Below are positions 15,670 through 17,477 of a stretch of 24,303 nucleotides of DNA, in pieces. The translations under genes were made by a program, and so were the position numbers. This DNA is from Proteiniphilum sp. (lineage in GTDB: Bacteria > Bacteroidota > Bacteroidia > Bacteroidales > Dysgonomonadaceae), in assembly GCA_012728465.1 (NCBI GenBank), contig JAAYFB010000453.1, forward strand, positions 1-24,303, given 5' to 3'. The notes under the pieces are model-generated. The model did not search any database, was not told where the DNA came from, and was given only the letters and a program-made list of their open reading frames with translations. The first letter of the stretch is position 1, and every line of letters begins with the position of its first letter.

Positions 15670-16359
15670 TTAAATTATTCCGTTGTCAGCGTAGCTATAA
15701 TAGGTTTCGCCACAAACTATTATATGGTCAAGAAGCTCAATATCCATCCATCTTGCTGCCTCTTTAAGTTTCTTTGTTAATGCAGTATCTTGTGGGCTTG
15801 GCGTGCAGTTTTCGGATGGGTGATTGTGTCCTAAAATTATTCCACTAGCGTAATGATTGATAGCTTCTCGCAATATCAATCTAATATCTACCACTGTTCC
15901 CGAAATTCCACCTCTGCTCACTTGCATTGTAGCTACCACTTTGTTTGATCTATCTAATATCAATGCCCAAGTCTCCTCGTGGTTTAAGTCGGATAGAATG
16001 GGGAAAAACTGTGAATAGGCATCTTTTGAGGAAGTTATCTTTTTTTTGTCTGGAATTTCCTCTAGTTTTCTTCGCCTACCTAGTTCTAGCGATGCTATAA
16101 TGTTGATAGCCTTAGCGGGTCCAATGCCTCTAAAGCCATTTACCAAATCGTTAACGCTTAACTTAGCCAAATTGTTGATATTATTGTCCGATTTGTGAAG
16201 AATTTTCCTACTCAGTTCTACAGCACTTTCGTTGTCATTTCCCGAACCTATTATAATAGCCAACAGCTCTGAGTCTGTTAATGCATTAACGCCTTTTTGC
16301 ATCAATTTCTCTCTTGGTCTATCTTCCTCTGCCCAGTTTTTAATACTACCGCTTTTCAT
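15670..16359 (-). CDS. radC: RadC-family JAB/MPN-domain protein
   Basis: A 229-residue member of the RadC (UPF0758) family. It opens with the typical IKNWAEEDRPREKLMQKG, has a helix-hairpin-helix region around GFRGIGPAKAINIIASLELGRR (about residues 73-94), and a JAMM metal-binding motif ILGHNHPSENCTPSPQD (about 175-191) with both histidines, the serine and the aspartate in place. The family was first linked to DNA repair, but that role has been questioned; the JAMM fold suggests a metalloprotease-like or nucleic-acid activity that is not settled. It is the first gene of the minus-strand operon with sufT-like and lpxH, under the promoter box at 16387-16394. It is a complete chromosomal copy, not the shorter phage or plasmid type. 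Confidence 0.93.
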   Translation of the reverse strand: MKSGSIKNWAEEDRPREKLMQKGVNALTDSELLAIIIGSGNDNESAVELSRKILHKSDNNINNLAKLSVNDLVNGFRGIGPAKAINIIASLELGRRRKLEEIPDKKKITSSKDAYSQFFPILSDLNHEETWALILDRSNKVVATMQVSRGGISGTVVDIRLILREAINHYASGIILGHNHPSENCTPSPQDTALTKKLKEAARWMDIELLDHIIVCGETYYSYADNGII

Positions 16360-16394: not shown

Positions 16395-16553
16395 AATAAA
16401 AAAGGGTCGATAGCTAATCAAATTCATAGTATAAATGTACATCATAGTTATTCGTCTTGTGGCGTGGATGTGTATTTTATTTTTGGGGGATTATTTCCGT
16501 GTAGAATGTATGGGTTAATAAAATTTGAAGTATTCTTTCTATATGATATGTAT

Positions 16554-16822
16554 GACTGAAAAACTTTTTAGTAGTTCCCGACGTACGGAAAGTATGTCTA
16601 AACGGTTTTTTTGGGATCCAAGACGTACGGAAAGTAGCCTAAAAAAGTTTTCAGACTTACTTTCCGTACGGAAAATAGCCTATAAAAGTTTTCAGAGCTA
16701 CTTTCCGCACGGAAAATGGCCTGAAAAAGTTTTCAGAGTAACTTTCCGCACGGAAAGTAGGGTTAAAAAAGTTTTCAGACTTACTTTCCGTACGGAAAAT
16801 AGGCTGAAAAAGTTTTCAGAAT
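16554..16822. repeat. Array of six 41-42-base imperfect repeats with nested palindromes
   Basis: The core CG(T/C)ACGG begins at 16582, 16624, 16665, 16706, 16747 and 16789, so units are 42, 41, 41, 41 and 42 bases apart. In the last four units the core is the centre of a palindrome, ACTTTCCGTACGGAAA or its C-for-T variant; in the first two the left arm is degenerate (GACGTACGGAAAGTA). Between cores lies a second dyad, best preserved as CTGAAAAAGTTTTCAG after units 4 and 6. Only a partial copy of that dyad precedes unit 1. The unit length is not a multiple of three, which argues against coding. The array lies between the radC promoter and the efp terminator. Confidence 0.9.
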
Positions 16823-16851
16823 ACTCCAAAAGGTGGTTTTTAAAATCAAAA

Positions 16852-16876
16852 AAGGCATTGATATTTTCAATGCCTT
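16852..16876 (-). terminator. Rho-independent terminator of efp
   Basis: AAGGCATTGA (16852-16861) and TCAATGCCTT (16867-16876) form a perfect 10-base stem with a 5-base loop. The A-run just before 16854 gives the U-tail on the minus strand. It lies 37 bases past the efp stop. Confidence 0.88.
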
Positions 16877-16913
16877 AATATTTGTATGTTGCAACATGTT
16901 GTAGTTGAGCCTG

Positions 16914-17477
16914 TTATTTTGCTCTTTCTACATATGCGCCTGTTCTAGTGTCTATTCTTATTTTTTCACCCGTATCGATGAAAAGCGGAACACGAACTTC
17001 TGCTCCAGTTTCCACAGTAGCTGGCTTAAGTGCGTTAGTTGCAGTGTCGCCTTTAATACCTGGCTCCGTATATGTTATTTCAAGAACAACGTGAGCTGGC
17101 ATCTCAGCCGTAAGTATAGTTTCGCTTTCAGCGTGCATTTGCACTTCCACTATGTCGCCTTCTTTCAGAAATTGAACACCATCTATCTGTTCTGCTGGGA
17201 TTGGAATTTGTTCGAAAGTTTCAGTATTCATGAAGTTGTATCCCATATCATCTTGATATAGGTATTGATATGGGCGACGTTCGATGCGCACCTCGTCAAT
17301 TTTTACTCCCGCATTAAATGTTTTATCTAAAATGCGTCCTGTGGTTACGTTTCTTAGTTTTGTTCTAACGAAAGCTGCACCTTTACCTGGTTTTACGTGA
17401 AGAAATTCAACAATAAAAAAGTATTGTCCTTCCAGGTCGATGCACATTCCGTTTCTAATATCTGCTGTTGTTGCCAT
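16914..17477 (-). CDS. efp: Translation elongation factor P
   Basis: EF-P binds the ribosome between P and E sites and relieves stalling at consecutive prolines. The 187 residues match the family. Domain I carries the tip loop [13 protein letters not shown] with Lys32, the position modified in many bacteria; the loop is of the KPGKG type. [12 protein letters not shown] and [10 protein letters not shown] belong to domain II, and [18 protein letters not shown] [18 protein letters not shown] with [21 protein letters not shown] forms domain III. It has its own promoter (17514-17545) and terminator (16852-16876), so it can be expressed alone, though read-through from the NCS2 gene upstream is possible. 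I see no gene for a lysine-modifying enzyme in the window. Confidence 0.96.

Follow-up and report, generated by a model that had tools for sequence, protein, structure and literature searches.

The gap between radC and efp in this Proteiniphilum genome contains a short core, CG(T/C)ACGG, that is repeated six times at almost constant intervals, and the question raised by this locus is what such an array is and why its spacing should be so regular. Within the window (the whole stretch analysed, 24,303 nucleotides), the six cores start at 16582, 16624, 16665, 16706, 16747 and 16789, with core-to-core steps of 42, 41, 41, 41 and 42 bp; both positions and steps reproduce exactly those given in the initial annotation of this DNA. 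Four of the six cores were said to lie inside a palindrome, and TTTCCG[TC]ACGGAAA does enclose four, starting at 16661, 16702, 16743 and 16785. With up to one mismatch permitted, this pattern gave 8 matches on the two strands (4 places) in the window, compared to a mean of 0.01 and a maximum of 1 when the window was dinucleotide-shuffled 100 times. A second dyad described between these A cores was also recovered. This B dyad, with the general form CTGAAAA-N2-TTTTCAG, alternates with the A cores, being perfect (CTGAAAAAGTTTTCAG) at 16721 and 16804 and variant at 16556, 16598, 16639, 16680 and 16763 (by eye). As the A and B centres are about 20.7 bp apart, i.e., two helix turns, the dyads of the array form a lattice, with one dyad per two turns of the helix. 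TRF gave periods of 41, 42 and 83 for the array, and the units are tandem and head-to-tail. The features of the locus are the following.

15670..16359, minus strand: radC, flanking gene (Pfam PF04002, PF20582)
16456..16819, plus strand: complete dispersed element, from the limits of inter-copy homology; left end approximate
16456..16575, plus strand: degenerate head, 41-42 periodicity kept, in the register of the other copies (profile/alignment of copies)
16556..16571, unstranded: B dyad CTGAAAAACTTTTTAG (by eye)
16582..16588, unstranded: A core 1, CGTACGG, left half of the palindrome degenerate (core pattern)
16598..16613, unstranded: B dyad variant CTAAACGGTTTTTTTG (by eye)
16613..16619, plus strand: GGGATCC signature unit, position common to most copies (copy alignment)
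16624..16630, unstranded: A core 2, CGTACGG (core pattern)
16639..16654, unstranded: B dyad CTAAAAAAGTTTTCAG (by eye)
16661..16674, unstranded: A dyad 3, TTTCCGTACGGAAA (palindrome pattern search)
16680..16695, unstranded: B dyad CTATAAAAGTTTTCAG (by eye)
16702..16715, unstranded: A dyad 4, TTTCCGCACGGAAA (palindrome pattern search)
16721..16736, unstranded: B dyad CTGAAAAAGTTTTCAG (by eye)
16743..16756, unstranded: A dyad 5, TTTCCGCACGGAAA (palindrome pattern search)
16763..16778, unstranded: B dyad TTAAAAAAGTTTTCAG, within the fourth unit (42 bp) (by eye)
16785..16798, unstranded: A dyad 6, TTTCCGTACGGAAA (palindrome pattern search)
16804..16819, unstranded: final B dyad CTGAAAAAGTTTTCAG, right end of the element (by eye and copy alignment)
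16852..16876, minus strand: terminator-like hairpin 3' of efp, separating efp from the element (hairpin search)
16914..17477, minus strand: efp, elongation factor P, flanking gene (Pfam PF01132, PF08207, PF09285)

As far as tested, the gap is free of genes, as had been proposed: the only ORF overlapping the array (16525-16878, plus strand, 117 codons) has no Pfam match. A coding repeat was rejected for the same reason and because unit lengths of 41, 42 and 43 are mixed; intermixed 41- and 42-bp units make a coding repeat impossible. The periodic array is present where it had been placed, but the periodicity reaches further left, to about 16456. Homology between copies begins about 157 bp before the GGATCC unit and ends at about the last CAG, and the orientation is that of the other copies, with the degenerate head on the left and the crisp dyads on the right. 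The nearest genus-named relative of RadC is from Petrimonas (80%), followed by Proteiniphilum and Fermentimonas, among the 120 relatives listed, which makes a member of the Dysgonomonadaceae the probable source. In congeners, a hairpin of different sequence was seen by eye at the place homologous to 16852..16876.

A search of the whole genome with the array found 28 stretches that match it, spread over 14 contigs (the window's included), and this rules out a unique locus. The efp-radC array is one of about a dozen copies of an intergenic element of approximately 365 bp, which is built of about nine 41-42-bp units, the left ones degenerate, with two alternating dyads. Single units scattered at random spacing, which the initial annotation had named as the outcome that would undo the phased binding-site idea, were looked for, and whole phased elements were found dispersed instead; loose single-unit matches in the genome occur at about the chance level (reversed-pattern control). 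Contigs C3 and C179, which share 96% identity along approximately 517 bp, may represent a single region seen twice, and the copies on C3, C263 and C357 are truncated by contig ends. The copies are intergenic, overlapping ORFs in two cases only (117 and 73 codons), and the genes around them are convergent, tandem or divergent, with no constant context. No match to the element was found in phage and plasmid records at the search sensitivity used.

The aligned copies share one order of units, including the GGGATCC signature unit, and a fourth unit of 42 bp with [CT]TAAAAAA is present in 7/7 six-core copies (C3, C263, C191 and C357 were left out of the comparison of unit signatures). The right end can be read in 11 copies, of which seven have six crisp cores (six by script plus C55, whose diverged first core is visible in the alignment), four have fewer (C253, C291, C179 and C191) and none has more; the right end is a B dyad in eight of them, and the shorter copies lose units on the right side. 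The absence of any copy with more than six crisp cores disfavours ongoing growth, and unit signatures are positional; the suggestion that the array grew by unequal copying from one end was thus rejected. The decay toward radC that had been described is not special to the efp-radC locus, as the other copies with a preserved left side decay at the same positions. Units within an array are more alike than units of different arrays (36 units from 10 copies; permutation p = 0.0002; units left of the GGATCC anchor dropped, C3, C263, C191 and C357 left out), which implies some local homogenisation, so that repeat turnover acts too. In the C218 copy, a degenerate unit-like stretch was seen by eye past the right end, which is therefore not wholly clean.

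The same genome carries a second repeat family of the same build, represented by C303 and C308 (450 bp, 82% identical). In L060 (3670-4118) and L054 (105-553), its palindromic cores are about 41.6 bp apart, and the family is too diverged for TRF; one unit in L054 is, by eye, a long near-perfect hairpin. More arrays, with periods of 21 and 42 and units that are partly similar by eye, are located in L331 (247-311) and L345 (83-221).

Comparison with congeners suggests how the element came to lie here. The efp-radC gap is 559 bp in this genome vs 95-115 bp in all eight congeners in which radC was found (nine were compared, one of them without a radC match). Similarly, the C218 copy lies in a 492-bp gap between convergent genes, a gap of 27-42 bp in 7/7 congeners having both genes. 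With two loci about 450 bp longer than in congeners, the element was, by parsimony, probably inserted at efp-radC. The borders of the two filled/empty site pairs are A-rich, without a clear target-site duplication by eye. No significant match to the element was found in any of the nine congeners, some of whose assemblies are incomplete (in three of the nine, 23 bp matched with E about 0.09), and TTTCC-N4-GGAAA pairs at 40-43 bp were absent from 100 other genomes of the family. On these searches, the element appears to be species-restricted.

Across its copies, the element has kept its length while its letters have drifted. All 50 recognised core steps in 13 copies were 41 bp (26), 42 bp (23) or 43 bp (1). 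In the head, to the left of the crisp part, mean pairwise identity is 44-59% in 30-bp windows; despite this low identity, the copies keep a common register out to about −160. When shifts of up to 20 bases were permitted, offset zero was the best fit to the profile of the other copies for 10/12 copies in each of three head windows, for 11/12 in the next window and for 12/12 in the crisp window, compared to 0/12 in the flank control. The misses were C366, with a constant 1-bp shift corresponding to one insertion, C291, in two windows, with an unrecognisable head, and C437, by 1 in one window; C55, C191 and C222 were in register with a head score near zero.

Gap openings gave a similar picture. 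In the head, there were 0.5 gap openings per 100 substitutions (11 copies compared in 55 pairs gave 20 openings and about 3,750 substitutions, at a mean identity of 0.59), while the control, the efp-radC spacer of seven congeners and thus a single locus, had 9.3-13.4 (mean identity 0.70-0.73). Trimming of the head stretches to equal length favours few gaps, and the register test, which permits shifts, agrees with the count; C291 (head unrecognisable), C3 and C357 (contig ends) and L203 (gap the same as in L204) were left out. The helical phasing originally proposed from one array is therefore strengthened, with every recognised step at 41-43 bp and with about 20 times fewer gap openings for each substitution than one ordinary spacer of the genus shows. 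Intrinsic curvature was probed through the AA/TT power at 10.4, which was raised in 8/8 copies tested. It was likewise raised at 13.8, 20.75 and 41.5, so these signals look like harmonics of the repeat.

As phasing is supported, cooperative protein binding remains the leading reading. We put at about even the chance that the element works at the DNA level, as a dispersed platform on which the dyads keep helical register so that a candidate protein can bind them cooperatively. The dyads would all face the same way on the helix; a putative dimeric or otherwise dyad-reading protein would bind them cooperatively; the bound protein would form a local nucleoprotein platform, serving as a roadblock, an insulator or a nucleoid anchor; and phase-breaking indels would be purged by selection. 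Phase selection in DNA would account for the length conservation, for the fixed element and for the irrelevance of strand and gene context, and a cooperatively binding dimer would be its simplest agent.

The rival that survives best is a neutral palindromic minisatellite: arbitrary sequence would be duplicated by a ruler of about 21 bp, one array would then have dispersed, and phasing would be a by-product. Dispersed bacterial minisatellites of the MIRU-VNTR and cyanobacterial LTRR type consist of tandem units of about 40 bp in intergenic regions at many loci. The element resembles them in having intergenic tandem units of this size at many loci, but differs from them in its shared unit order, its unit maximum, its strong length conservation and its two alternating dyads. 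The occurrence of the same step in other genomes bears on this rival.

A scan of GTDB species for TTTCC-N4-GGAAA pairs at a preset 40-43 bp gave at least 106 stretches, of which 80 were listed as loci and all read by script. Long runs at 41 or 42 occur in Bacteroidota (e.g., L076, L084, L091, L132, L142 and L143), and there are also matches, a number of them at 40 or 43, in Paenibacillus, Verrucomicrobia, Marinobacter and others. As heptad repeats in proteins may underlie some arrays of the 21/42 kind, e.g., L094 in a 440-codon open frame, we relied on free-spacing searches. The 21-bp TTTCC-N4-GGAAA arrays in L079, L083, L094, L117, L147 and L149 possibly encode heptads FPxGK/N in some frames. 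In L090, L103, L104, L114 and L138 (Paenibacillus/Paenibacillaceae), tandem hairpin units of 40-42 bp abut, by eye, a GGAGG-like ribosome site and an ATG, and these units could possibly be a 5'-leader repeat. In a Parabacteroides array (L142, 7105-7416), the second dyad swaps both arms together by eye (CCCC/GGGG, CGTC/GACG): GTCCCC..GGGGAC and GTCGTC..GACGAC co-occur with a broken hybrid, as if symmetry were kept and not sequence.

With spacing left free between 18 and 48, TTTCC palindromes were found in 4 of 295 Bacteroidales genomes (own genome included), AAACC palindromes in 4 and TTTGG palindromes in none. TTTCC as a class-wide motif was rejected, as AAACC matches equally many genomes (4/295 each). 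Outside the own genome there were at least ten arrays or pairs; among the matches listed, nine are at 21 or 41-43 (one of them, in G305 at 43, a lone pair where TRF reported no array), and the exception is a single pair at 33 (G286). Viral contigs served as a control of presumed chance pairs, and 6 of their 28 pairs fell in 20-22 or 41-43, where spacings distributed uniformly over 18-48 would give 5.4. At the level of the phylum, 2/395 genomes matched, the own genome included, the other match being at 40.

Repeat families with periods of 15-60, grouped by shared 12-mers from TRF output, fell at 20-22 or 41-43 in 28 of 32 cases, in a sample that was partly selected. The own genome had two families in 268 kb (periods 41/42 and 42) on contigs partly picked for bearing the element; G128 had seven in 400 kb (21, 21, 21, 23, 23, 41 and 42); and G250, another member of the Bacteroidales (L289-L308), had 19 in 260 kb, all at 20, 21, 41 or 43, many with 8-17 copies. 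G128 and G250 had been picked for their free-spacing palindrome matches, which biases the prevalence upward. In twenty other Bacteroidales, unselected and represented by one stretch each, four families were found in 260 kb (16, 20, 22 and 54), two of them at the preferred step. The congener G002 had a single family in 400 kb, with period 24, which the tally of 32 omits. Arrays were dropped when their period was outside 15-60, when they had <2.5 copies or <55 bp, or when they were of low complexity; coding arrays stayed in. Dyad symmetry is barely present in the units of G250 (Fisher p = 0.047); what the families have in common is thus the step and not the dyad, and dyadic units as a universal feature were rejected.

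The minisatellite explanation thus gains from the 28 of 32 sampled families that keep the step whatever their sequence, and also from the within-array homogenisation, the inconstant gene context of the copies and the nine congeners without a significant match. For the 19 barely dyadic families of G250, a ruler blind to sequence is a better fit than a single protein with sequence specificity. Such a 21-bp duplication ruler explains the variety of families better, but not the depletion of indels: a ruler acting at birth leaves unexplained why indels should later be about 20-fold rarer at a mean identity of 59%, and also why six crisp cores are the maximum in 11 copies. For these reasons, we consider a purely neutral origin possible, if on the unlikely side. 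Both may hold, with arrays born with a 21-bp step and a few of them recruited as platforms.

Somewhat more doubtful is a non-autonomous mobile element, which a trans-acting transposase would move after recognising the B dyad at its end, perhaps by a rolling-circle mechanism. The two loci longer than in congeners, the B dyad at the right end of 8/11 readable copies, the cutting of shorter copies on the right and the lack, by eye, of a clear target duplication are in line with it. However, it leaves the phase constraint unexplained, and no partner of the Y1_Tnp type (PF01797) was found, with 0 matches in the own genome, an assembly 89% complete, while 5/14 control genomes were positive. This reading is compatible with the platform explanation, and both may be true together.

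Several known repeats invite comparison in this respect. REPs are described as palindromes of 20-40 bp (PMC3733652), and BIMEs as sets of REPs at regular intervals and of alternating orientation to which proteins bind (PMC2817692). Like REPs, BIMEs and REPINs, the element is dispersed, intergenic and palindromic, but it forms a whole of about 365 bp where those palindromes are given as 20-40 bp, and its dyads have, by eye, no constant GTAG or CGTC tag: the letters adjoining the B dyad vary (GTAG, ATAG, ATGG, GTAT, AAAG and others), with no constant CGTC. A GTAG-type REP/REPIN with a RAYT was rejected, as the Y1 transposase is absent from the contigs of this genome (89% complete). CGTC-type REPs are reported from Bacteroidetes and are said to lack a dedicated transposase (PMC3733652), so the absence of Y1 does not exclude that type. 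The enterobacterial RU-1, RU-2 and RU-3, described as 103-168 bp long, located in multiple intergenic regions and compared to MITEs (PMC2759123), are also small and found in multiple intergenic regions, but the element is internally periodic, and neither a terminal inverted repeat other than its periodic dyads nor a clear target duplication was evident. No published description of 21/42-bp quantised arrays in Bacteroidales was recognised among the open-licence PMC papers listed, including PMC3733652, PMC2267715 and PMC12306157.

A structured RNA, the other possibility raised at the outset, fared worst. Compared to shuffles, the two strands folded with z of −7.8 and −12.4, yet strong folding on both is what inverted repeats give either way. 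To the right of the anchor, Watson-Crick pairing was found in 224/252 cells of the B stems and 205/276 of the A stems; the G-U departures numbered 15 on the plus strand vs 8 on the minus strand in A stems and 6 vs 18 in B stems (cores left of the GGATCC anchor dropped; C3, C263, C191 and C357 left out). As these leanings of the A and B dyads are opposed, strand-specific RNA selection was rejected, and no compensatory changes were seen by eye in the stems of the element family. A known RNA family was rejected as well, with no Rfam match at the gathering score in the window; below that score there were 15 matches at the array, the best to a plant-type microRNA precursor (46.5 of 211 bits, E 3e-7), which an inverted repeat may produce. 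A transcribed hairpin array, acting as an sRNA, an mRNA end stabiliser, a terminator or an attenuator, is thus very improbable, since besides these points a terminator-like hairpin stands between efp and the array, divergent gene contexts occur, and a phasing of 41-42 bp is not something that RNA hairpins require.

In bacteria, intergenic repeats are as a rule judged by their sequence and are often deemed selfish or neutral. To our knowledge, the nucleoid proteins of Bacteroidales are poorly known. We tentatively propose, at rather less than even probability, that there is a general class of phase-locked intergenic arrays in Bacteroidales, comprising genome-specific families that would share one ruler of about 21 or 41.5 bp (two or four helix turns), set by a conserved DNA-coating protein or by an enzyme of duplication that counts turns of the helix instead of letters; the element in the window would be a member that has been dispersed as a fixed form of about nine units. 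The conserved quantity here is length in helix turns, across unrelated sequences and in several genomes. If this is true, nucleoprotein sites specific to one face of the DNA, or a duplication process that measures length, would be findable from sequence alone.
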